A DNA stretch of 64,000 bases from Hyperoplus lanceolatus (taxonomy: Eukaryota > Chordata > Actinopteri > Uranoscopiformes > Ammodytidae): NCBI GenBank assembly GCA_026929865.2, contig CM049398.1, positions 12,936,001 to 13,000,000 on the forward strand, read 5' to 3'. Positions 13,946 to 56,341 of this stretch are shown here, piece by piece (the stretch's first letter is position 1; each line of letters opens with the position of its first letter). Made by a program: the position numbers and the translations under genes. The notes under the pieces were generated by a model. That model had not been told where the DNA came from, ran no database searches, and was given only the letters and a program-made list of their open reading frames with translations.

Positions 13946-14663
13946 TCCTGCTCCCTACACTCTGCAATCATCGGAACTGCTTAACACATGCCTTGTCTGA
14001 GGGGGATACAGGTACTTTTTGGTTGGTATTAACGTAATTCAGACTGAATGTAAAGCTAATTTAACCTGGGAAGTGTGAATTAGGGTGAAAATGAATAATT
14101 ATCCTGAGGCATAAAGAGTGCAATGCATACACCTATGGAAACTAGAAGATTGAGAGGGGGATCGTAAAGAAAATAACAGAACTGGAGTTCTGAGATCGGT
14201 CAGAGGCTGAGCTGTAAGAGCAAACACAGCACTATAGCACAAAACAATTTCTCTACATTGTCTGTTTGGGGTGAATGAACACAAACATGAATTGCACAAA
14301 CAGGAAGTGAAAATGAAATGCTTTGCTGTCTGCCTGAACAAAGGTTTCCACACATGCATCGCTCACAATTACCGGACTTGCATAATACGCTGACGATATC
14401 TAGCATGTAGGTCAATGCACTGGGGTCTGCCAACCACTGCTGCTGTCTACCTGCTTTCCCAGTACAGATGAAAACAGACTCCGCCATTCAATTACACTCT
14501 GTCAGTTAAGAGGCAATGGCGCAAGGGTAAAGAAGCAAAGGGCTGAGGATGAGCCTCGTGTCTTCAATCTCTGCCTGACTCCAGCTGATTGTCCTATATT
14601 CCAGCAGCAGCCGCGTGAATGTCAGAGAGGAGAGGAGATTAGCCCGGTGTCAACCCTTATGTA

Positions 14664-14943
14664 CACTCAACAAAAATATAAACGCAACACTTTTGTTTTT
14701 GCTCCCATTTTTTATGAGATGGACTTAAAGATCTAAAATTCATTCCAGATACACAATATTACCATTTCTCTCAAACATTGTTCATAAATCTGTCTAAATG
14801 TGTGATAGTGAGCACTTCTGCTTTGCTGAGATAATCCATCCCACCTCACAGGTGTGCCACATCAAGATGCTGATCTGACATCATGATTAGTGCACAGGTG
14901 TGCCTTAGACTGTCCACAATAAAAGGCCACTCTGAAATGTGCA
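14664..14943 (+). repeat. Tc1 left inverted terminal repeat
   Basis: This arm pairs with 16015-16294 in inverted orientation over 280 bases. It is much longer than the 20-50 bp arms of many mariner elements and resembles the long arms of fish Tc1 families, which carry inner and outer transposase-binding sites. Confidence 0.92.
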
Positions 14944-14982
14944 TTTTTTTGCTTTATTGGGGGTCTGGGGACTCAGAACCAG

Positions 14983-15996
14983 TCAGTATCTGGTGTGACC
15001 ACCATTTGCCTCATGCAGTGCAACACATCTTCTTCGCATAGAGTTTATCAGATTGTCAATTGTGGCCTGTGGAATGTTGGTCCACTCCTCTTCAATGGCT
15101 GTGCGAAGTTGCTGGATATTAGTGGGAAGTGTTGCACACTGTCGTATACGCCGGTCAAGCACATCCCAAACATGCTCAATGGGTGACATGTCCGGTGAGT
15201 ATGCTGGCCATGCAAGAACTGGGACATTTTCAGCTTCCAAGAATTGTGTACAGATCCTTGCAACATGGGGCCGTGCATTATCTTGCTGAAACGTGAGGTG
15301 ATGTTCATGGATGTATGGCACAACAATGGGCCTCAGGATCTCATCACGGTATCTCTGTGCATTCAAAATGCCATCAATAAAATGCACCTGTGTTCTTCGT
15401 CCATAACAGATGCCTGCCCATACCATAACCCCACCACCACCATGGGCCACTCGATCCACAACATTGACATCAGCAAAGCGCTCACCCACACGACGCCACA
15501 CACGCTGTCTGCCATCTGCCCTGAACAATGTAAACCGAGATTCATCTGTGAAGAGAACACCTCTCCAACGTGCCAGACGCCATCGAATGTGAGCATTTGC
15601 CCACTCAAGTCTTTTACGGCGACGAGCTGGAGTCAGGTCAAGACCCCGATGAGGACGACGAGCATGCAGTTGAGCTTCTCTGAGACGGTTTCTGACAGTT
15701 TGTGCAGAAATTGTTTGGTTATGCAAACCAATTGTTTCAGCAGCTGTCTCAGTGGCTGGTCTCAAATGATCTTGGAGGTGAACCTGCTGGATGTGGAGGT
15801 CCTGGGCTGGTGTGGTTACACGTGGTCTGCGGTTGTGAGGCTGGTTGGATGTACTGCTATATTCTCTGAAACGCCTTTGGAGACGGCTTATGGTGGAGAA
15901 ATGAACATTCAATGCACGAGCAACAGATCTGGTTGACATTCCTGCTGTCAGCATGCCAATTGCACGCTCCCTCAATGCTTATGGCATCTGTGGCAT
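14983..15996 (-). pseudogene. Tc1-like transposase, full length but with an early stop codon
   Basis: The ancestral ATG is at 15996. The frame reads Met-Pro-Gln-Met-Pro, then TAA (15981-15979), then stays open for 330 codons to TGA at 14983. The frame shows a first helix-turn-helix near the N-terminus (STRSVARALNVHFSTISRL), an RRPR linker and a second helix-turn-helix. It then shows the full DD34E triad, numbered from the first codon after the stop-proximal Ala: Asp144 (FTDESRF), Asp232 (QQDNARPH) and Glu267 (SPDMSPIEHVW), with 34 residues between the last two. It ends GGHTRY. The next ATG (15954) would lose only the first 13 or so residues, so residual activity cannot be ruled out. The catalytic core looks undamaged. 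Confidence 0.9.
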
Positions 15997-16014
15997 TTTG
16001 CTGTGAGACAAAAC

Positions 16015-16294
16015 TGCACATTTCAGAGTGGCCTTTTATTGTGGACAGTCTAAGGCACACCTGTGCACTAATCATGATGTCAGATCAGCATCTTGATGTG
16101 GCACACCTGTGAGGTGGGATGGATTATCTCAGCAAAGCAGAAGTGCTCACTATCACACATTTAGACAGATTTGTGAACAATGTTTGAGAGAAATGGTAAT
16201 ATTGTGTATCTGGAATGAATTTTAGATCTTTAAGTCCATCTCATGAAAAATGGGAGCAAAAACAAAAGTGTTGCGTTTATAGTTTTGTTGAGTG
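16015..16294 (-). repeat. Tc1 right inverted terminal repeat
   Basis: This is the inverted copy of 14664-14943. By-eye differences are a C for an A near the tip, a T/C change in the T-run and one T/C change mid-arm. The inner end lies about 19 bases upstream of the transposase ATG at 15996. Confidence 0.92.
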
Positions 16295-19200
16295 TAGGTT
16301 AATGCAAGAGCTGGCTAAACATTTGTAACCCAAAAGGAGATTAATTACTGTCGGACTGTGTGCGCATCGACTGACGTATTTCATTCACTTTGCTGGCTTT
16401 TTTTTGTCGTGTTTGTTCTTGTCTCATGGGTTGTAAATCTACCTTTATTAGGAATCATCTCTTCCTCTTCTTCCTCTATCTTGGCCTCTGTGTTGTGCCC
16501 CCTTCCCGTTAAATCAACATCCACTGCATCAATTTGGCAGGCCAATTTGTTTTTAGTATTCCTGTTTTGCTTTTATTTAGTATTTACCTGCCCCCCCCCC
16601 CCATTCCGTAGTGTATGTAAGGTGAGGTCAGTGATCAATTTCACTGATTCAATGGTTAATTTTTTCAGGTGCAGATAGTATGGCCTTTTAAAACGTGCTT
16701 CCAAGCACATATTTTGAAAGTTCATTGTCCTGCCCAACTCCCATTCCCAACTGTTGACCAGTGGAAGACAATGCTACAACAAACTGAGCAGCAAGCAAAG
16801 TGAGACATTTTAACATGACAGGCTAAAAGTATTCAGTAATTTGCGTGTAAACACCTTGCATCTTTTTCATTTAATGTCTTGTCGAAGGAGCTAGTCCACT
16901 GTTCCTGTAAGCTATTGAAGAGATTCACCAGCCTCCATATTTCAATGAGAAAGTGGAATGAGAGCATTAAGGGACTGGTTAAAGGCTGTGGCAGAGTTTT
17001 GTAAGGGGAGACCTTCTACCAATATAGCAAATTACTGCTGCGCCATAATAAAGGGCACTCAAGATTTGTAATACTGCTTCAAATGTCAGAGGTTTTGGAG
17101 CAAATTGACACTGGATTTTTACTCGGGTAAAGATTATAATATATTTCACTTTCCATGTAAAACATGATTTAGAGAGCAAGTGTGTGAGGAGTAGTTTGGG
17201 TTGATTTTGATGAAAAAAGAACTAGAGTGTTGGGAACACAGCATATTATATGAATATGTCACAATAGGGAAACAGCAAACAATGAAGCAGTGTGATCTCA
17301 GTCTAAGGGACAACATAGCACACAAAAACACAAAGACATTATGCATATGATATAAGCCCATGTTTCCTTTGGCTTCCACATTGATCCTAGGACCCAAAGC
17401 CCTTCAAGGTCATGTCAGAGACGAAGAGTGAAAGCATGACAGCAGGAATATATCTTCTGCTGCAACTATCTGAGAGCAAATAACACATTCCAGCTCCCCA
17501 ACATGAGCTGTAGCTAGTATCAAGGGAAATCAAGTGCAGGGGTGAATTACAGCGTGCAATATTTTCCTCATGGTGCAATGCATGGTTCTAACGCTATACG
17601 CAAAGATCTTGGTAGTAAAGCCATTTGTGCACTGTCACAAGCTGATGTTCTCAGTATTGTTTTATTCAGTGCGGGATATCTTCAATTGATCCAACTGACA
17701 TGGCTGAGACATGTCCCTCTGTTATGGGATAAAAGGTGGAAGATGGAGGAAGCTAATGCGTCCAGAGGCTTGCATGGGGGACAACTTTGAGAGAAAAGGC
17801 TCTTGTGAGGTGCAATAAGTCGTCCCTGTGGTGACCCACTCTGAGAAGAACAACACAGCTGAATAGCCACAGATGAGCCCACACATAGCCTGGGCTTTTT
17901 AACAGAGAAAAAATGGGACAACAACCTCTCCCACCTCCCTCCTTCTCTCGTATACCCACAGGCTCTATCTGTGCAGCTTATCCTGCTGCGATCCATCCTG
18001 CATTTAGCAGGTAATTGGTTAAGCTACTACTGTAGCTAGAGTAAGCATCATATCAGGTCTACAATCATCACTTCAATCCACACATCCATCGTGATTTTCT
18101 GGCCTTAACGTTTCCCAGGAGTCAGCCCACGCCCGGCTCATAGAACATTTCTCATTTAAGTCTGTCAAAGTGGTTCAATCTAGAGTCAGATGTGGTCGAT
18201 GTTTGAAGGCCACATGTGGTTATAATTAAGGCACTGTGGGAACCGTGCCCCTGATGGGAACCAAAGTCTCTAAGGTCGGACTAGAATCATCACGTGTGGC
18301 CTGCCTGCCTTCCTCTTAACCAAAGACAAATCTGAGCTTCCAGCCAGGTGACTTTATTATCAGCGGACTAATTGGAAAAACATGCTTTTCATTGACTTGG
18401 TAATGACTCTGAATGGTTTTATTGCTTGTCAAGCAACGGGCTATTTTCAATTACCTGCTGACCCACGTCCATGAAATTGAGCAATGGAGGAGTTTAGAAA
18501 AAGCCTGCTGATGTGCTTGAATCTGTTCATTTGGAAAATAAACCTCAAGTGAAAATGCAAAGCCTGACAACTCCCAGGTATAGCTAACAATGATGGCAAC
18601 AGGTTTGAGTCAACCTGGTTTTGGGCACATCTTCAAACTGGACACGATAAAGAACATATTGCCAAAACAACTGTGGTTACCACATTAAAAAACAACGGAT
18701 ACAGTAAAAACTGATTAAAATATATTTTTATTTGAATACACCACATGGCATGTTGCCACTCACTCCTGCTTCCATTTCAGAAAATCGTTTAAATTTAGTT
18801 TGATTTTTGGATCAATTATGTAATCTTGTCTCCTCCTATAGGATATATTTGCATATGGGTTGATGGAAACGTGCTTATTTACTTTTCATTTAGCAAAAGC
18901 ATTAATTCTCCTTGTGCAACATTTGAATGGACACATAACTTTAGTTTTGACTTCCTTGGGAAACCATCACTGTAGATGGCACAGTGCCATGAAGACACTC
19001 ATTTAGTTTGGTTTAAAAACATGACAGTTAGAGTTTCAGGATGACTTTGGGGACTCTTGCTGGCCTTTCTTGACCTGCCTCAGCTCCCACCGGAATGAAC
19101 TGTACTTGCCTTCTTGCTTGCCAGTACATCTCTGAAAAAGGATTAGCTCTCCTGCTGCTGTTTTCTATATGTCACCGTTTAACTCTGCTTCTTTTTTTGT

Positions 19201-23176: not shown

Positions 23177-23785
23177 AAGGCCAGGACACACCGGTCCGAC
23201 TACCGACCGTCGCCCGAAAATGGAGTCTGCCGTTGCAGGCAGCTCCAGTCTGCCCGTCGCGGCCAAAAAAGTGCCAAGAACACACCGAGCCGACTACTGA
23301 CTTTCCGTATGCTCTGCACTTGCGCGGGATGCAATGTCTCCAATAACAGCAGGCGGCGCTAATCTGTATTGTGGCCCAAAACAATACGGAAGCCGGAAAT
23401 TATGGGACAGCTTTATATCTATGGACCATAAAGAGCACCATTTTTAGCAGAGAGTGTCGAGCATGGTGTCGAGCAGTCAAGAAGGGTTGATGCATGTGAG
23501 TACTCGCTGAATGAAACAAACAAACACATTAAAACAATGGCTAGCGATGCGATACTGTTGTCAGCCGTTTGTGCTACCCGCCTCACTTCCGGGCTTCACT
23601 GATTCGCTGGCCCTCCACCAATCAAATTTCTCCGACTGAAAGACTGCCCGACGCCGAAAAGAAGCCCGACAACATCTACGACGGCCGACGTCACCGAACA
23701 CACCAAACAGATTCGTGTTCCCGCCCCCTCCAGACTCTCCGACCATGTCCGATGGCCGATTATTGGGCCGGTGTGTCCTGGCCTT
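23177..23785 (+). mobile_element. 609-bp non-autonomous TA-target element, family 1 (intact copy)
   Basis: The ends are inverted: AAGGCCAGGACACACCGG at the left and its complement at the right. Each is flanked by TA (23175-23176 and 23786-23787). Repeated CGAC/GTCG motifs fill the sub-terminal parts. No transposase is present. The right part (23412-23785) matches 50408-50767, which proves dispersal. The superfamily is uncertain; the TA duplication suggests the Tc1/mariner group. Confidence 0.82.
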
Positions 23786-24149
23786 TAGACGTCGATGCAA
23801 AATAATACAAGCAGCTGAGCAGGGGGGATGCTGCTTGGCTGTAGTTGACTTAATGAAGTTATATTACTGGTAATAATAACAGAAATTAGGAATAATATGC
23901 TGTTGAATCACTCTTTCCACTTGCAATATAGGTCCAAAGCATGCACAACCCATTAGATAGTATTTGAATTCATATCAACTTAACAAATAAAAAACTATAT
24001 TCAACCCACCATTGATTGTTCTTGTTGTGCTATACGTACATAGCCATTGTCTCTTTGTGTGATCATGTATGGCATTCATCTTTATCCTCTTTTTACGCTG
24101 GCCCTGACATTGAACATAAAAGTAAGACTATAGAGACAAATTTTCATTT

Positions 24150-25532: not shown

Positions 25533-26055
25533 TTAAAGGTCACATATTATGCTAAATGCACTTTTTAAATGTGTTCTAACATATCCATGGGTCCACGGTG
25601 TGCCTAGAGACTGCCAAAATATTTTAAAAAATAACAATCTCTCTTGTTCTCACTCTCCCCCTTTCTGAAACCCCCACCCCTCCCCCCCAATATACTCCAG
25701 TCAGAATTTTCCCCTTTTCTGACCTCACAAACTGGAAAGCCAGAAGCTTCCACTGTGCAGCCCACACCCCTATTTCTTATTGGTCCACGGCCCTGACAGA
25801 CAGAGGGCGAGGCGTATCTGGCTTCGCTTCCGGACAGGGGGCGGGGGCAGCTCAAAGATTGTATATTTACGAGGAGAGCTGCAGCTCTTTTTAAAAAATA
25901 GGCCATTGTGAGATTAGCTGAACATCAGCATAGTACAATAAATTATCTGAAAGTTTTTTTCAGCAAACAATTAAAGAAAAACGTATTAGGGACCACTAAG
26001 ACCATATAATATGGTGTATAATAGTACCGAAAAGTGTATAATATGGGAGCTTTAA
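25533..26055 (+). mobile_element. 523-bp TTAA-target MITE, copy 1
   Basis: The ends are TTAAAGGTCACATATTATGC and the complement of TTAAAGCTCCCATATTATAC. TTAA tetranucleotides sit at both ends (25533-25536 and 26052-26055), the signature of piggyBac- or Kolobok-type insertion. Two more copies in this window (27692-28214 inverted, and 53091-53613) have the same length and ends. There is no transposase, so it depends on another element. The roughly 100-codon open frame inside is shared by all copies and is discussed under findings. Confidence 0.9.
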
Positions 26056-27691
26056 CCAGAGTGTAGGATGGGGATCTGAAGCTACAACCTCAGGTGGTTG
26101 CTGCTGCACTGGCCAGACCTGAACCATCCCCTTCACAGTATTTCACTTTTCAAACATATAACTGGATACTGCACTTGATGGTTGTTGTCATGGTAATGGA
26201 CCAGTCCTCAATTCATCAAACAGCTTCTTTGGTTCCTGTATTGTCTTCCAATGTCACATCTTCGGTTTTGATGGGACACTTGATCTCACATATCACAATA
26301 CAGGCCCCAGACAACTGTCCAGTCGAGGCTGGGGAAGTGTTATATTAGATTCTCACACATCCTACATTACCATCAACATTTTTTTCGTAGCACATATTTC
26401 CTGCTTTTTCCCATTTTGCTGCCATATCTGACATTAAGATGACAGCTGCTAAACATGTCACAAGGTCCCTAAGCGGTGCATCATTACGGGCTAGATCAAA
26501 CTTAGTTCAGAGTTCAGGCAGAATATTAAGGGCTGTAATTAAACTATGTTTTGTTGGAGGATGACACCAAGAAGCTGATTCAACATTGGCCCCCAGTGAG
26601 ACATGAAAAGCGCAAAAGGTTTACGCTACGGAGCAGTTAAGATAGAGTATAAAATCCCCACCCAGTGCTGCATTGAAGATGATGGTTATGCTTGGTTTCA
26701 CTCTCCAGAGAAACTCTTCCCATCATCTTGTTTTTGCAACACCTCTCTTTATCTGTTTAGCCAAGAGGCACATTTTAAAAATAGAAGCCAATGCCACTTT
26801 CAAATTTTATTTTATTTTTTTCACCCTGATAATGTCATGTCACCTCACTGGACTTCATTCCAACACCTTTTAAACGCTTGTGCACAAACCAGGGAATAGG
26901 TAGGTTTATATGATTTTGTCAGGGATCAGACAATGTAAAGTTGTGAATTGGAACTGAAAGGGTGTTTGGGCCTTTGTTTACCTGTCTTTGTGAGGACCAC
27001 ATTGAGAAGACTCATGTGCTCTCTGTGTTTGCATGTGTGTGAATGAATCCATTAATCAGTGGGTGAGGGATATATGTATTTCACAAAGCTATATTTGGGG
27101 CCTAAAGCTGGTCCTAGAGTGTTTACTATTTTACATCACCGTTAATACTTATGTCAAACTTGTTGAGGTTGCTGCTAAAACTTAAAAATGAAGCCCCCTT
27201 TCTGACAGCACAATCTAAAAATTGTCTTGACTTTTGTAACTTTTTGGAGACAGACAGTCCAACCGTTTTCACATTGTATGCAGCGAATATGCAGAGATGT
27301 AAGGTAGTGTGTCTGTGTGTGTACTTTTCTCTGAAGCTGTATTTTATCATTCATCACATGACTGCCCCCAGTATTCTTTTCAGGTACAACTGAGTACAAC
27401 ATCATGCCTTCCAGGCATTACCCATTTGTATGATTCAACATGTCAAGACTACAAAGAACACAGAACACAGAGAGATTTTTGAGAGTGATCGAAGGGAGGA
27501 AATGATGATGAAAGCAGGCTATCGAGCCCACCTTTGAGTGTGGCCATTTATTAAAGTTATATCACTATCAGCATGCTTTAACTGGAATACTGGCTGCCGG
27601 ATGATTGGACAAAATCTGACCTCTCCCCATGCTTGTGTGGAGGTGAAGTATAATATTAGAATCAGACAATAACTCATATTACCTGGTTTGT

Positions 27692-28214
27692 TTAAAGCTC
27701 CCATATTATACACTTTTCGGTACTATACACTATATTATATGGTCTTAGTGGTCCCTAATACGTTTTTCTTTAATTGTTTGCTGAAAAAAACTTTCAGATA
27801 ATTTATTGTACTATGCTGATGTTCAGCTAATCTCACAATGGCCTATTTTTTAAAAAGAGCTGCAGCTCCCCTCGTAAATATACAATCTTTGAGCTGCCCC
27901 CGCCCCCTGTCCGGAAGCGAAGCCAGATACGCCTCGCCCTCTGTCTATCAGGGCCGTGGACCAATAAGAAATAGGGGTGTGGGCTGCACAGTGGAAGCTT
28001 CTGGCTTTCCAGTTTGTGAGGTCAGAAAAGGGGAAAATTCTGACTGGAGTATATTGGGGGGGGGGGGGGGGGGGGGTTTCAGAAAGGGGGAGAGTGAGAA
28101 CAGGAGAGATTGTTATTTTTTTTTAAATTTTGGCAGTCTCTAGGCACACCGTGGACCTATGGATATGTTAGTACACATTTAAAAAGTGCATTTAGCATAA
28201 TATGTGACCTTTAA
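27692..28214 (-). mobile_element. 523-bp TTAA-target MITE, copy 2 (inverted)
   Basis: This copy lies in the opposite orientation to copy 1, which is 1.64 kb away. It is flanked by TTAA at 27692-27695 and 28211-28214. An uninterrupted run of 21 G residues (28056-28076) replaces the interrupted C/G-rich tract of the other copies. Confidence 0.9.
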
Positions 28215-47670: not shown

Positions 47671-48051
47671 CAGACTCCTCCAATCCTCCTAAATACTGTA
47701 GTAAACTGTGGTAGCCTTCTGTTTCCTTTACATCTCCACTTTTAGCAGCTCTCCTCCCCACTCATTTCTGTGATCTTGTCTGGGAATAGCTCTCTGCTTT
47801 CCACCTATGGATCAGTGTTCGTTGACGCGCTCAAGGAGGGAGAAACTATGTAGTGCCTCAGCCCCTCCACCGGGCAGCATCATCCTTCTCACTGTCTGCC
47901 TCTGCTCCAGCCTGACACACGCTGCTCCCTGACACACACAAGTCCTATTAGATGTGAAATGACATGAGAGAGGACATCATTTAGCCCTACATGTAACAAC
48001 AACAATATGGCTATATATTAACCATTTGAAGAAACTCCATGGGAGATTTGT

Positions 48052-48057
<6 letters not shown>

Positions 48058-48112
<55 letters not shown>

Positions 48113-48121
48113 ACTCACTCA
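48058..48121. repeat. (TC)n then (ACTC)n microsatellite
   Basis: About 25 TC units followed by four ACTC-like units, 310 bases before the transposon nest. Confidence 0.96.
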
Positions 48122-49174
48122 CACTCACTTATGTTATGAAAGACTATCTATCTATCTAATTTATTTATTTTTATTATTTAATTAATTAATTCGATCCTAA
48201 AGTTGAATGCAGTGCAACTGCCCTGCTGAATTAGTTGTAGCCTAAAGATGCCCTTGCCTGATAGATTTTAATTGATTGTTTGTAATATTTGAATTAGCCT
48301 ATTTCATTAGAATTGTATCCTATTGAAAATGTAGGCTATAAAGTTTGCTCACAGTCTTTATTAATACCACATCTTATTTATTTTATTATTCAACTTTAAT
48401 TTTGTTGTAGCCTATCTATTTCAGTTTAATATAGGGGAGAACGGGGGAATGTGAGCCATCGGCTAATGTGAGACACCCCCTGTATCTAGGCTATGGAACA
48501 CATTTTTGGTCATTTGAGATATATGTTTTCAAGCCCCTCTAATTTCCCCATGGCCCTGAAAGAGAGGACCTCATGGTGATGTTGTAAGCATGTTTTTTTC
48601 TCAAAAATTTATTTTTTCATGTAAAAGTTTCTTGCTGTCAACTTTTGTTGTGCCAAAGCAAATTGGTTCAGGTAGAAAAACTTCTATCATACATGTTGAT
48701 GAACTACCAACATATGAAACCATGTGATGATGATGACTGAAGATTAGGCTGATTTGCTGAGGTAGTTTTTTCTCAAATTGTGGCAGTGGGGTAAAGTGAG
48801 ACAGTGTCTGTGCCCTAATCTATTATATTTGAGGTAGCAAGGAGACTAATTTGAATAAGATAAAAGACAATGTGGGCTGGAAATGGGGGTTGATGGTTGA
48901 AGGGGTGTCAGCAAGGGCATGGTTTGGCACGTATGTATGTGGGGGACAGGAGAGTGACCTTTAACACCAATAGACTCTAAGTAATGTGTCTTTATTCAAT
49001 GAATGATCCCAATAAAACAAATGCAGAAAAATATTAATCAAAGACTCGAAAGATGGAAAATAGACAGCTGGGTCTAGTCCTGTGTTCTGAGTCCCACGTT
49101 GTTCTAGCTGGTTCTGATTGTTCTTTGCTCTGACCCCCAGACACTACATAGCTGGCTCTAAAGGCCAGGACACA

Positions 49175-50405
49175 TCTGAGGCATCGGGTAATGTGAGCCA
49201 CCCCCTGTATCTAGGCAACGGAAAACATTTGTGGTCATGTGAGATATATGTTTTCAAGCCCCTCTCATTTCCCCATGGCCCTGAAAGAGAGGACCTCATG
49301 GTGCTGTGGTAAGCATGTTTTTTTCACCAAAATAGGTATTTTGCATGTAAAAGTAAATTTTCTTGCTGTTAACTTAATCAACTGTTGTGCCCAAGCAAAT
49401 GTATTCACGTAGAAAAACTTCTATCATACGTGTTGATGAACTACCAACATATGAAACCATGTGATGCTGATAACTGAAGATTAGCCTGAAATGCTAAGAG
49501 AGGTAGTTTTTTCTCAAATTGTGGTGGTGGGGGAAAGTGAGCCAAATGCTGTGGGGGAAAGTGAGCCACTGTCTCACTTTCACCCACCATGAGGCACAAG
49601 TTAAGTTTAGTCTTAAACATATTTTAATGTAATATTACATGACATGTGTTTTATTTTAATGTCATACACATTGTAGAAAAGCCATCATGCCAAGGAAATA
49701 CACCAGGAAGACGACCTGGGGCAACTACACGGAAAGAGCACCTTCTCATCTTTCCCTGTATCCTTCAGGGCTGGAATGTAGAGTAGGCCTAGTTGTAGAG
49801 TATGACAGGCTGATGTTATAATCCAGTTGGGTCTTCTCCTGTGTTCTGAGTCCCAGGCTGTTCTCGCTGGTTCTGATTTTCCTATGCTAGCTGACATTAG
49901 CTGGCTCTAAGGGTCCTGTGTTCTGACCCCCAGACTGTGTTATAATCTAACTGGTTCTATCTTTCATTTGAATCTTATTAAAACCTTTTGAATTATAATA
50001 TGTTGTATTTGATTTTGTTCAGAGTTACTTTCAAGTGTTTAGAAAATTTGCTTTGCTTAATTGACCAAACCCCATCATTCTTTTACTAGTCCGACATTAG
50101 TTCTGGAATGTGTGGCTAGCTTTCAGGATTCTTACTGTTACAATATGTGTTGTTGTGGTAGTTTCAGAGTGGAAAAAGTAAGTGGATCAGTTTACCCCAC
50201 AGCTGGGGTAAAGTGAGCCACATGACAACTTTTTTTAAAACAATCATATTTTCATTGCCCTTTGTCTTGAAAAAATTCTGCTATTGCCCATTTCTAGGAA
50301 ACATCCTGAATGAATGGGAAATGTGTAAATTTAAGTGATAAATCATTTTAGCTCCCTTAGAGGGGAGCAAATGTAAAAAGTGGCTCAGATTACCCCGTTC
50401 TCCCC
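49175..50405. mobile_element. pogo-like element A, inner copy, 5' end missing
   Basis: It aligns with the outer copy from just inside its left end and ends at 50405 with the complement of GGGGAGAACGGGGTAATCTG, then TA. The first 20 or so bases are missing. It contains an uninterrupted version (49893-49925) of the exact spot where the family 1 element entered the outer copy. It also holds the transposase start fragment at 49687. Confidence 0.8.
49687..49737 (+). pseudogene. start of a pogo/Tigger-like transposase, truncated
   Basis: An ATG opens MPRKYTRKTTWGNYTE. Many fish pogo/Tigger- or jerky-like proteins start with a similar MPR-basic-Trp-Gly stretch before their psq-type helix-turn-helix. 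Here the likeness ends after about 17 codons, and the frame stops 45 codons from the ATG. It fits the TA target duplication of the host element. This assignment is from memory of the family. Confidence 0.45.
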
Positions 50406-51071
50406 TATTTATATTTATGGACCATAAAGAGCACCATTTTTAGCAGAGAGTGTCGAGCATGGTGTCAAGCAGTCAACAAGAGTTGATGCATGTGAGTACT
50501 CGCTGAACGGAACAAACAAACACATTAAAAAAATAGCTGTTTGTGCTACCCGCCTCACTTCTGGGCTTCACTGATTCGCTAGCCCTCCACAAATCAAATT
50601 GCTCCGACTGAAAGACTGCCCGCCGCCGATTGAACATGTTCAATTGGCTAAAAAGAAGCCTGACGACATTTACGACGACCGATTTCACGGCACACACCAA
50701 ACAGATTTGTGTCCCCGCCCCCTCCAGACTCTACGACGGCGATTATCGGGCCGGTGTGTCCGGGCCTTAAGGGTCCTGTGTTCTGACCCCCAGACTGTGT
50801 TTTAATCTAATGGTTCTATCTGTCATTTGAATGCTAATTATTGAATATGAATTATATGGTGTGTTTGATCAGAGTTACTTTCAAGTGTTTCGAAAATGTT
50901 TTTATTTATTGAACAAACCCCATGATTCTGTTACTCGTCCGACATTAGTTCTGGAATATTTGGTTTTCAAGATAGCTGTCAGGATTGTAACTGATACAAC
51001 ATTAGTTGTTATGGTATAGTTTCAGAGTGGAAAAAGTAAGTGGATCAGTTTACCCCTTGATTTCTCTGGTC

Positions 51072-51109
51072 TGTCTCAGTTTACCCCACAGCTGGGGTAA
51101 ACTGAGACA
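51072..51109. repeat. perfect hairpin with 17-bp arms made of the terminal motif
   Basis: TGTCTCAGTTTACCCCA (51072-51088) pairs perfectly with TGGGGTAAACTGAGACA (51093-51109) around a CAGC loop. The arm resembles the element's own end (GGGGTAATGTGAGACA). The inner copy has a shorter version at 50191-50212 with 9-bp perfect arms and the same loop. Confidence 0.9.
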
Positions 51110-51296
51110 CAAGACAACTTTTTTTTAAACAATCATATTTTCACTGCCCTTTGTCATGAATAAATTCTGCTAATGCCCTTTTCTAGGAAACATTCTGAAT
51201 TAATGGGAAATGTGTAAATTTGACTGATAAATCATTTTAGCTCCCTTAGAGGGAAGCAAACGTAAAAAGTGTCTCACATTACCCCGTTCTCCCCTA

Positions 51297-51620
51297 TACC
51301 TAAACCTATTTCTAATTTATCTACATAGGCCTACAATATTTTATGAAATAATGTTGTTAAATTTGTTTTACATCTTATATATAAAAAAACACTGATTCTG
51401 TTTGATAATTGACCCAATGTAGATCATTGGTTTGACTCTAACCCGTAGTGTCTTGGTGTGGTCCTGATTGTCCCATAGGCTGTAAGTTCGGTCATCATGT
51501 CCCGTTCAGTGCATCAACTTCATCGGTGCTCGACTTCTACGCCCTGACACTTCTTCACTCGATTAGTTTAGCCTTCCTGTTTCCCACATGTGTCGTGTTT
51601 GGAGAAAAAAAACACACAAC
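51297..51620 (+). promoter_or_regulatory. dph1: dph1 5' UTR and proximal promoter
   Basis: Only 326 bases separate the last base of the transposon nest (51294) from the dph1 start codon, so the core promoter must lie here or within the nest. I see no TATA box. The start codon sits inside AACATGGCGGC, which resembles the YY1 site (AANATGGCGGC) found over the start codons of many TATA-less housekeeping genes. That fits a ubiquitous tRNA- and translation-related enzyme gene. The boundary of the 5' UTR is not visible. Confidence 0.5.
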
Positions 51621-51672
51621 ATGGCGGCGCCTTTAAGTGAAGTCCAGATTGTTCCTGTCAAAAAGCCTACAG
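51621..51672 (+). CDS. dph1: dph1 coding exon 1 (diphthamide biosynthesis subunit 1)
   Basis: The ATG opens MAAPLSEVQIVPVKKPT plus one base and is followed by a GTGCGT donor at 51673. The exon ends in phase 1, which matches exon 2 at 54119. The N-terminus of DPH1 is poorly conserved between species, so this exon is assigned by splice phase, the Kozak-like AACATGGCG start and its place upstream of the clearly recognisable exon 2. DPH1 and DPH2 form the radical-SAM iron-sulfur enzyme. It moves the 3-amino-3-carboxypropyl group of S-adenosylmethionine onto a histidine of elongation factor 2, the first step of diphthamide synthesis in the cytosol. Confidence 0.78.
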
Positions 51673-54118
51673 GTGCGTTTTACATCTGTTATGCAATATT
51701 TAACACGGTAGACAGAGAAATACACACGTTTTATTAGTAGGCTACTGACAGAATCCCTGTGAGTTTTTTTCAGCACAGCGGTCTGACTGATGCAAACAGG
51801 AAATGTATTAACGTCATCTGCTCTGCACCGTGTTATTCCCAGTCCATGGTTATTCCAGCTGTTAAAATTGATTTACAAAGACTATTAGATTTTTCTGCTA
51901 CATATTTCTCATCCGATCAGCGTTAGTGTTGTGGCGATGACTCACAATCACTCGATGGCGAGCACGAGATCGATTTTGTCCCACACAGTCACAGGATGAC
52001 ATATCCCTCGTGCCATCAATGGGTTTATGAAAGGTGGTTATTAACACCGTTCCTATTATCATTCCATCATGCGTTTTGATTCAACACAGCAGAGGATCAA
52101 TGTCTTGGCAGAGAAGAATAACAAATGATTTATTACCACGTGAAAAACGTGACATTTCCTTTGTTTACATGATCTCAGTAATACAATGTATTGAACACAA
52201 CAATGGCAGTGTTTTATTTATTTACTTATTTTGCTATATTATATGGATGGATAGTATGTTCTAAAAAACTAAAACAACTTGTCACCTAGATAATTTATCA
52301 TATCAAAGGAAGTGTTATGAGCTGCAATGTTATGTTACAATGTTGTTTGTCAGTGTTCCCTTTTAGCTTGATTTCACATGATTGCAACATATTGCAAACC
52401 CTATTAATCAGCTTTTGATTAAGGCTTTTGAAAGGAATACAAACACAATATGACAAATATATCACAAAAACACGTGTGTGTGTGGGGGGGGACATCACTC
52501 TATTCTGTATATGTGGTAAAACAATGATAAAGCATGACTGGGACATGCGCTCACTGCAGAGACTAGGGTTCTCTTGGTTGGCTCCCATTTTTAAAAGACA
52601 AACAAGGGACAAGGGGCCCTTTGGCCGTCTGTCTGACATTTCCATTCAATCCATTTCTCTCTTACATATTCATATCAAAAAGACTTACGCGCTGCCAGAC
52701 AACTGAGATGATACGGTTCTATTATTTTAATGCATAGGTGAATATTTGAGATGATGATGTTTGTGTTCAGGGTTGGGACAAATTTTGGAGTTTTAAGAAT
52801 ATTTGAATAATTATCCGGATAATATGGTAGTTTACAGTTATTTTGTCCATGATAATATAGGGCCACATGTTAGAAGGGCCGTCAAAAGATCTTCTAGGAA
52901 AGGACTATACTGTTTGTTTTGTTTTCTAATCAAGTTTATGCAAGTAAGAAAAAACAAGACAGGAGTTATCCTTAAGATTTTTTGTTTAGTCATCAGAATG
53001 ACAGAGGGAGCAGCAAATTTGATGAAATACATTTTCATTTAATTTAGATTTCCAATATATAATTAACTTAGACTGTACCGGGAAAAAAGCTTAAAGGTCA
53101 CATATTATGCTAAATGCACTTTTTAAATGTGTTCTAACATATCCATGGGTCCACGGTGTGCCTAGAGACTGCCAAAATATTTATAAAAATAACAATCTCT
53201 CCTTTTCTGACTCTCCCCCTTTCTGAAACCCCCACCCCTCCCCCCCAATATACTCCAGTCAGAATTCTCCTCGTTTCTGACCTCACAAACTGGAAAGCCA
53301 GAAGCTTCCACTGTGCAGGCCACACCCCTATTTCTTATTGGTCCACGGCCCCGACAGACAGAGGGCGAGGCGTATCTGGCTTTGCCTCCGGACAGGGGGC
53401 GGGGGCAGCTCAAAGATTGTATATTTACGAGGGGAGCTGCAGCTCTTTTTAAAAAATAGGCCATTGTGAGATTAGCTGAACATCAGCATAGTACAATAAA
53501 TTATCTGAAAGTTTTTTTCATCAAACAATTGAAGAAAAACGTATTAGGGACCACTAAGACCATATAATATGGTGCATAATAGTACCGAAAAGTGTATAAT
53601 ATGGGAGCTTTAAGTCAGTTGTTTATAGTTTCATGGGTGTCTTGTGCAAATATTTATATGGAGAGCAGTGAATTCAATGAATTTATAATAATTGCTGTGT
53701 GTTTAAAAAGGCTTAACATTTACATTTTCAGAGAATACATATTCTTACAAATGAAACACTGCATCACTTTGAATGCCAACATTATTAATCAAGTCAAATC
53801 GATCAAAGTGTTGCAGAATAAAGTGGCCCTACAGAAGATTCTATAAAATGATTTAGAAAAGATGTTGCATCTCTGTGAGTCTATACAGTAGCTTAATTTG
53901 GTGCAGAGTGACCTGTACTGATTGTTCTTGCAGAAAAACTTCACTGATGAACATACAATATTAATCTGACTGTGACCTTTTACGCGATGGTCTCATGTGA
54001 GAGACCAGAATGTCTGTAGAATCGATGTAGAGTTTGGTCCGTTAGATATGTCAGCATTGCTTCAACCTGTGTTCAGCAAATTGCCAACAGCTCGGTCCTT
54101 TCTTGCTTTTCTCTTCAG
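51673..54118 (+). other. dph1: dph1 intron 1
   Basis: This intron is bounded by GT at 51673-51674 and by a pyrimidine-rich tract ending in AG at 54117-54118. It is 2,446 bases long. It contains one 523-bp TTAA element (53091-53613). The rest (51673-53090 and 53614-54118) shows no gene or repeat I recognise. Confidence 0.75.
53091..53613 (+). mobile_element. 523-bp TTAA-target MITE, copy 3
   Basis: This copy lies in dph1 intron 1, in the same orientation as copy 1. TTAA at 53091-53094 and 53610-53613 bounds it. Its sequence is nearly the same as copy 1, with scattered substitutions. Confidence 0.9.
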
Positions 54119-54268: not shown

Positions 54269-56341
54269 GTGAGCTTGTGTCTGTTCTTTCCTAATGCACT
54301 TGATTCAATTAGCACATGATTGGGGATCTGTATTTCCTATTTTAACAGAGAGATTCACTGTGGAGGAGTGGGGGGGGGGCAATGCCAGGTTTCAAGTGAT
54401 GAAGAGTGGCTGTGGAATAAGCTTTCGTGCAATGGTAAAATAGGGTCTGGGTGTGGTACTAATTTAACAGATCGGTGGTTTAGCATGGACATTGACATTA
54501 TGTAAAAGCCGAATGAATCATGTATTGCACAATATCGCGGCAAGGCTCACAAGTACTGTCTAAGAATGGTTAAGTATTAAGTGCTTGTGCTAGAGGTTTT
54601 TAAATTGCATAACAATCCTTCTGCATAACATTGGCTGAATTGGAGCAGAGGCTGTATGATTTTATTTAACTTTAAAAAAAGTAAAGGATCTTTTACAGAG
54701 CCTGTGTTTACATATGAGGAATAGTTCCATTTTATATTCATATTAAAACGCTTTAACTAGTTCAGGGTGGAGCTCAAATTAAGCGTTTTGTCCCCAAACC
54801 TGACACAGTGACAGCCATGCCCTTTGAAGTCTCAATTAAAAGATGGTTATCTTATGTCTATTAATATCAGTGTCACTACGAGATAAAACTAAGATTAGCT
54901 AAAGGTTTATGACACCAAAGCACTTAACTGTGTTTTGTTACTCACGCCTCATTAACAATCACTTTGTTCAGAGGGATTAGCAGCCAATGTAAAAACAAAC
55001 GGGATTCACAGCATTATGAATTGAATACAGCAGGACAATGTGTGCAAGCATTCATCCACATGCCATCAGGGAATTCATCTGTGCTTTGACCTTCTTCGGC
55101 AACTTCATTGTACATTTGGTAACTTGCGAGGTTTACACAGGTTTATCCAGTCTAAGAACAAATCCAAAACAATGGCAGTTTTCAAAAGGCCCATGTAGGT
55201 CATCCCGCAATGAACATGCAATAACAAATCTCACATCCCTGGACAAATACAGTATTGCCGCAATACTCTATTTCAGATGTAATGTTTGTGTTCCTCTGTA
55301 AAGGTGGGATTCAGAGAAAGAGGCACATTCGTAAACAAGCTTATTGTCCTTGAACACCACCGTATATTTAGTCAATTATTTGAACGGTAGGGGTTAGTAA
55401 GGGGCCGTTGCAATCTAGAATTTCACCTCTGGATGTCGCTTAATAGTGATATCTTACACACTTTTCCTTTTTTATAAAAAAAATAAAAAAATAATATAAT
55501 CAAACAGAGTAATCCCACGTGGGCAAAACAACTAATTTGTGTAGCAAGACCTGCAGTGGGATTGTTGCCTCAGGGCTAACTGTGTGTGAGAACAGTGGGA
55601 GGCTTCACTGGCAGACATTTTTGTATGAAAGTAAAGCTTTCCTTCATATAGTGCTTTTTAAAGCACACAGTTAGAAAGTGCCTCATAAATGCAAACACAA
55701 AAACTATATATGAATATTAATGAATAGGAAGATAAAGTAAAATATATTTAAAAACACAGTGCAAGGAGAGACTAATGGAGTTTAAATGAGTTACAATTAA
55801 ATACAAAACTCACAGAGAGACGGATGGAGGAAAAATGAATTCCAAGGCACAAGGAGAGACAGACCAGACAGAGAAAACTAACAGAACTAAAATATATAGA
55901 CAGAGTTTGTTTTACTGTATGGTAATATGACATTGTCTACTAGCCCTTATAGGGGAAGGTGGGGTGATTTGTGCATTTTGGAAGATGCAAAACCCCTTGT
56001 TTCTAGAAAACCGTGGAAGAAATTGGAAATGTGACCACATATTTAAGAAGAGCCATCCATTTGACTCATCCTGTAAAGAAGGGAGACACAAGGAATAAGA
56101 TATAAGCACATTTAAGCTCAAAAAACTGTGTTTTGCCTTTCAAAGTAAAATTTCCATGATCAAGGTTTTTTGATTATTGTGTCTGAACAATTATAGACAC
56201 GTTTGAAAACATTTGACACATGTTTAGTGCTTTGGTATGCTACACTTTGAGTCTATATAGTTAGCACAATGTCAACCCTAAATTGCTGCATCATGCCTAT
56301 TATCCAAAATTCTGGGGATGGGGTGATTTGTGCGCAAGGGC

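Follow-up and report, generated by a model that had tools for sequence, protein, structure and literature searches.

One TAA inside element A, a high-copy element of the Hyperoplus lanceolatus genome, is a recurrent, predictable Harbinger-type target, and the transposon nest at 48434-51294 of the window (the whole stretch of 64,000 nucleotides analysed here) holds one insertion at this very site. We put at roughly 85% the probability of the following history. An older copy of A would have entered first. F1, a second element, would then have inserted into it at the TAA within the core CCCTTAGAG (minus-strand reading), a strong target at which F1 and several other TAA-duplicating elements with terminal inverted repeats (TIRs) would have inserted independently in many copies of A. 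A young A of a second subfamily would later have jumped into a native TA of the nested F1, and a deletion of roughly 255 bases would finally have taken away both the left end of this inner A and the greater part of the left half of F1.

Layout of the nest

BLAST of 47900-51900 against the window, combined with pairwise alignment, gave for 48434-51294 the order outer A / F1 / inner A / F1 / outer A. The features are as follows.

23178-23784, plus strand: other F1 copy of the window, 607 bases; flanks TAA and TTA
48434-49158, plus strand: outer A, left part; begins with the TIR GGGGAGAACGGGG / GGGGAG, after the target TA at 48432-48433
49159-49161, plus strand: left TAA target duplication made by F1; the break is GGCTC-TAA
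49162-49174, plus strand: left terminal remnant of F1, 13 bases (AGGCCAGGACACA), identical to 23178-23190
49175-50405, plus strand: inner A, of a different, younger subfamily; 15 left bases gone, right end CTCCCC intact
49687-49746, plus strand: short piece resembling a transposase start (MPRKYTRKTTWGNYTERAPS), inside inner A
49908-49910, plus strand: the same TAA, unbroken, in inner A (empty-site control)
50357-50359, plus strand: TTA in inner A, second predicted Harbinger-type site, core CCCTTAGAG; the prediction was made on outer A
50406-50407, plus strand: TA target of inner A within F1; a native TA in F1 relatives
50406-50767, plus strand: F1, right part, 362 bases, ends GGCCT; E 4.4e-105 to 23412-23788
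50768-50770, plus strand: right TAA target duplication made by F1
50771-51294, plus strand: outer A, right part; CTCCCC end, then TA at 51295-51296
51246-51248, plus strand: TTA in outer A, second predicted Harbinger-type site, core CCCTTAGAG; top score of 51 TTA/TAA sites

The sequence-only reading had proposed the same order of pieces, and the alignments bear it out. Inner and outer A are collinear both in their left arms (E 1.5e-123) and in their right arms (E 3.2e-151), and the right part of F1 matches the copy at 23 kb (E value as listed). For the three pairs of pieces the alignment scores were 494, 606 and 416, with maxima of 29, 42 and 26 after shuffling; swapped A arms scored 30 and 21 only.

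Inner A reads GGCTCTAAGGGTCC straight through the TAA at 49908-49910 and is a true empty site for the F1 insertion. That the inner copy preserves the state before insertion had been claimed from the letters, and other copies agree: besides the nest, 19 of the 20 fetched outer-type copies are unbroken at this TAA, as are 10 of the 10 inner-type copies. The break site itself had also been located correctly; its inner counterpart GCTGGCTCTA lies at 49900-49909, not at 49901-49910.

Entry of inner A into F1

The motif AAATAYG-TA-TTTATATKTATGG is unbroken in 12 of the 12 nest-like F1 copies. Since these relatives read AAATAYG-TA-TTTATAT, the right junction of the nest, CTCCCC-TA-TTTATAT, represents insertion at a native TA. 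The left junction is damaged. Inner-type relatives begin with GGGGAGAACGGGGGAATCTGAGG (ends of 10 relatives), while the nest inner A reads AGGACACATCTGAGG; about 15 bases of inner A are gone there, at a place where relatives read GGGGAGAACGGGGGA-ATCTGAGG. On the F1 side 222-241 bases are gone, as measured in 8 of the 12 nest-like copies, those with both ends placed by script. An insertion of inner A into F1 with losses had been read from the sequence alone, and the insertion stands; the losses had been set at about 220 bases of F1 and 20 of A, figures which these counts replace.

One base is common to both sides at the left joint of A and F1. Both losses, that of the left end of inner A and that of about 240 F1 bases, would be best explained by a single later deletion across the joint, and the left target duplication of inner A was presumably removed along with it.

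Element A and its two subfamilies

The TIR arms of outer A (48430-48458 and 51270-51298) span 29 bases and are 93% complementary. By eye, TA stands on both sides in 11 of the 11 outer-type copies with both ends visible and at both ends in 8 of 10 inner-type copies, with no longer shared repeat seen in either type. Pogo elements are marked by a TA duplication, a TIR of up to 40 bp and a transposase with a psq/CENP-B type DNA-binding part and a DDD domain; the first two of these marks are found in A. The short basic start of inner A, MPRKYTRKTT, presumably resembles a start of pogo/psq type; the piece that carries it (49687-49746) is present with few changes in 10 of the 10 fetched inner-type relatives. 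A Pfam search of 49687-49773 gave no match for this stretch, which offers a 20-residue start only. Judging by its ends and targets, A is probably a non-autonomous TA-target element of the pogo/Tc1-mariner group. A scan of viral contigs returned 0 matches for the A TIR and 0 for that of F1, and no paper was found in a literature search by the A TIR letters GGGGAGAACGGGG.

Outer and inner A are different subfamilies. They are about 91% alike over aligned bases; in their middles (48804-49062 and 49545-49821) the likeness does not exceed that of shuffled sequence, the alignment score of 20 being reached by 111 of 500 shuffles. In the 806.7 Mb assembly containing the window, outer-type A has at least 39 long matches besides the window (best identity 92% among the matches listed) and inner-type A at least 39 other long matches, at 94-98% identity.

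Substitutions between outer and inner A comprise 20 transitions and 65 transversions (48449-48803 against 49173-49544, 49063-49160 against 49822-49909, and 50768-51297 against 49908-50408). Outer A against its own relatives has a weaker excess of transversions (541:735 transitions to transversions, from pairs that are not independent), and for the F1 pair the ratio is 16:10. The subterminal GTGAGAC of outer A (48473, 48801, 51107 and 51272) is GTGAGCC at the matching places of inner A, as if the two subfamilies carried different predicted binding motifs.

Several other repeats lie in the window. A Tc1-like element at 14662-16296 has 287-base inverted repeats 98.6% alike and a stop-to-stop frame at 14983-15978 on the minus strand (331 aa, DDE_3 E 4.5e-16); among six reading frames of the window submitted to Pfam, only this one gave a match. 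A repeat of 523-529 bases is present in three copies (25533-26055, 27689-28214 and 53091-53613), 95-97% alike and one of them inverted. A further repeat is seen at 55950-56189, 240 bases that match the flank of a different copy of A (L005) at 99.6%.

F1 as a predicted PIF/Harbinger-type MITE

We scanned 42 F1 loci, which gave 30 distinct copies with both ends recognised. Identical 3-base flanks were observed in 22 of them (21 TTA or TAA, one CAA); the 8 with non-identical flanks include the copy at 23 kb of the window (TAA/TTA). Because of these TAA/TTA flanks the window alone suggested TA as the duplicated target, and the sequence-only reading had named TA. This has to be given up: with TA, a T would have to be missing from the nest; with TAA, the nest flanks (TAA/TAA) are explained as they stand, in agreement with the 21 copies flanked by TTA or TAA.

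In 11 complete F1 inserts 18-20 of the 22 terminal bases match between the inverted repeats; in the nest copy, which is damaged, the figure is 15 of 22. F1 thus combines a TTA/TAA duplication, short TIRs (14-25 bp in PIF/Harbinger elements) and an extended target preference; by these features it may be classed as a PIF/Harbinger-type MITE. An autonomous partner of such a MITE would carry a DDE transposase and a second protein. The copy at 23 kb has at least 39 genome matches (best 90% among the matches listed), and the right part of the nested F1 also has at least 39 (best 93% among those listed). A literature search by the F1 TIR letters, in four spellings, found no paper.

Order and age of the three pieces

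Differences private to each piece, relative to the majority of its close relatives, number 36/1231 in outer A (20 relatives for the left part, 15 for the right), 16/1228 in inner A (10 relatives) and 10/353 in the nested F1 (12 nest-like relatives). By this divergence inner A is younger than outer A (p=0.007) and marginally younger than F1 (p=0.057); outer A against F1 gave p=1.0. Set against 30 F1 copies drawn more widely, the nested F1 shows 19/351 differences, more than outer A; such counts vary with the choice of relatives and serve as a relative guide, not as dates.

Nesting alone does not prove the order: F1 could already have held inner A on entering outer A, in which case the composite moved once and the last two steps are reversed. 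Both F1 ends are present and nesting permits such a move, which we nevertheless consider unlikely: among the 40 matches listed per junction, only the window itself spans each junction of inner A with F1; inner A has fewer private differences than either neighbour, at the significance levels just given; and, had the deletion come first, F1 would probably have been unable to move with a left remnant of 13 bases. The activity order A, then F1, then A, which had been deduced from the nesting, is therefore better founded on nesting, junction uniqueness and divergence taken together.

Recurrent insertions at one TAA

Genome-wide, the right halves of A number about 1,650; in 1558 the C preceding the hotspot TAA is intact and in 91 it is not. 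We classified 78 of these 91 changed sites, namely 76 fetched sites (T and A types), the outer-type copy L012 and the nest, with the 13 G types left out. Base changes, defined as at most two differences in the nine bases AGCTGGCTC adjoining TAA, account for 36 sites; 23 are insertions with both junctions; in 17, foreign sequence runs right up to the TAA and no left junction could be recognised; and two (L106 and L135) are unclear. The script had called 31 insertions, eight of which, with end matches of 5-8/22, were moved out of the both-junction group by hand.

The 23 insertions have TAA on both sides in 22 cases and CAA/TAA in one. They fall into six TIR types: F1 (12), M3 (five, TIR AGCCCAGTTC), M2 (three, TIR TAGGCCTTTCACACC) and M4, M5 and M6 (one each). 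L012, the single one of the 20 fetched outer-type copies not intact at the hotspot, holds a different element at exactly this TAA. Three of the 17 foreign-sequence sites end like F1 (L107, L115 and L125), and several share ends mutually. L161 and L162 have their end in common. Nine further matches, among those listed, run from outer A into an F1 end; four are copies already fetched and five are additional.

Some sites deserve mention on their own account. Breaks or rearrangements at other places in A affect nine of the 20 outer-type copies, and L012 alone of the 20 is hit at the hotspot, which speaks against treating the hotspot as the only such place. Three of these nine (L011, L016 and L018) break within ten bases of each other, at joined positions 1165-1175, maybe another preferred place. 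In L115 the last ten F1 bases stand at the hotspot, and A is broken at its position 225. This copy was considered as a candidate second nest; its sequence suggests instead an A that holds F1 at the hotspot and has suffered a deletion, as if the deletion had run from A into F1. In L106, an inner-type A, the hotspot reads GGCTCTATAAGGG, with two extra bases that could be a footprint or a simple indel.

Target sequence and control site

A TAA in the right arm of A served as a control; it was the only control TAA counted, and it scores below the hotspot. It has 24 places that are not G and 1481 that are intact. Among the 20 of these 24 places that were read, 0 insertions were seen (19 base changes, one internal deletion). 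The difference in insertions between hotspot and control has a Fisher p from 3.5e-7, if the remaining four places are non-insertions, to 6.6e-4, if all four are insertions.

A target matrix was built from 21 F1 targets, none of them showing A motifs. It ranks the hotspot second and a further site, site two, first among the 51 TTA/TAA sites in A, with the same result in 21 of 21 jackknives, and it places the hotspot at the 99.88 percentile of the 2570 TTA/TAA sites in the window. At half-width 5 the hotspot ranks 3/51, at half-width 3 it ties with site two, and the control TAA ranks 13 to 30. The strongest matrix position outside TTA is weak, at 0.62 bits.

Hotspot and site two share the 9-base core CCCTTAGAG. 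The plant PIF target consensus is CWCTTAGWG; the core fits it at 8 of 9 positions and the control TAA at 7 of 9, so that the consensus alone fails to separate hotspot from control. The letters CWCTTAGWG had 0 occurrences in the papers listed by a literature search. At site two we counted 43 places that are not C, seven of which keep CTCC in front, leaving 36 breaks; these are counts only, and some of the breaks may be truncations or further base changes.

Recurrence might instead reflect accessible chromatin, or selection that removes insertions at other places in A, and owe nothing to the target sequence. Such causes are improbable: hits fall at one exact TAA, with 0 insertions in the 20 of 24 control places read in the same element, and the hotspot is predicted from F1 targets that lie outside A. 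Preference for the target sequence itself is the likely cause.

Independence of the insertions

A single A carrying F1 or M2 could also have been amplified as a composite, with no repeated hits. The three M2 inserts give some ground for this: they are 95-97% alike and all in the same orientation, and because of this likeness some of them could come from one composite. For F1 and M3 amplification is largely contradicted. The F1 inserts lie in both orientations (seven in one and five in the other), and no pair of them reaches 95% in its best local match; pairs of M3 inserts are 70-85% alike; the hotspot insertions have A hosts of both subfamilies; and six TIR types meet at one site. As an account of the recurrence as a whole, composite amplification is very improbable.

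That inner A arose from outer A by tandem duplication or gene conversion, as their common family, equal orientation and adjacency might suggest, is scarcely credible and, for tandem duplication, ruled out by the two copies belonging to different subfamilies with dispersed relatives: their middles are not homologous, inner A reaches 98% likeness to dispersed copies, as opposed to about 91% to outer A, and its right end falls exactly at the TA present in 12 of 12 nest-like F1 copies.

Independent insertion at the hotspot allows a broader proposal, to which we give an even chance: A would be a dispersed landing pad whose two CCCTTAGAG sites are preferred by PIF/Harbinger-type MITEs of many families. 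On this view every burst of A would have scattered targets through the genome, to be filled later by Harbinger insertions. A nest normally gives an order of events only; this one leads to a repeated natural experiment, in which six TIR types meet at one position in a set of about 1,650 A right halves and other TTA/TAA sites serve as built-in controls, so that a Harbinger-type target sequence becomes measurable from the genome alone. It also raises the question of whether the several families depend on a common machinery or only agree in their choice of target; the transposases responsible would be those of the classes to which F1 and A are assigned by their ends and targets.

Likeness to known systems

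In the portions of the literature consulted, PIF/Harbinger elements are described with TWA duplications (PMC4482050), TIRs of 14-25 bp (PMC4565680) and a target preference extending beyond three bases, to 9 bp in plants and 15 bp in vertebrates (PMC2836001); mPing is likewise said there to prefer TTA/TAA (PMC4561436). As far as these excerpts go, F1 resembles PIF/Harbinger (Tourist-like) MITEs in its TTA/TAA duplications, short TIRs and extended target preference. The excerpts on pogo elements give mostly TA duplications and TIRs under 40 bp (PMC7386202, PMC9976928). Element A is like the fish pogo/Tc1-mariner elements so described (Passer, Tigger kin) in its TA duplication and short TIRs, and unlike them in that no catalytic domain was seen in it.

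The hotspot is named in none of the titles and abstract openings listed by the literature searches, and we do not claim it as unpublished. The wider idea is old. Jiang and Wessler, in 2001, reportedly used nested MITEs to read insertion preference, and Walker, in 1997, is said to have dealt with PIF at the maize r locus. Judged by their titles, both works share with ours nested or repeated hits at a preferred target; here, in contrast, six TIR types of one genome converge on a single site of a dispersed element. Transposition-in-transposition (TinT) chronologies, in their published outline, also draw relative order from nesting, TinT by a genome-wide matrix and our analysis from a single nest followed base by base with its empty sites. 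The nest itself is ordinary and target preference was already known; the value of the nest lies in the natural Harbinger target assay to which it leads.
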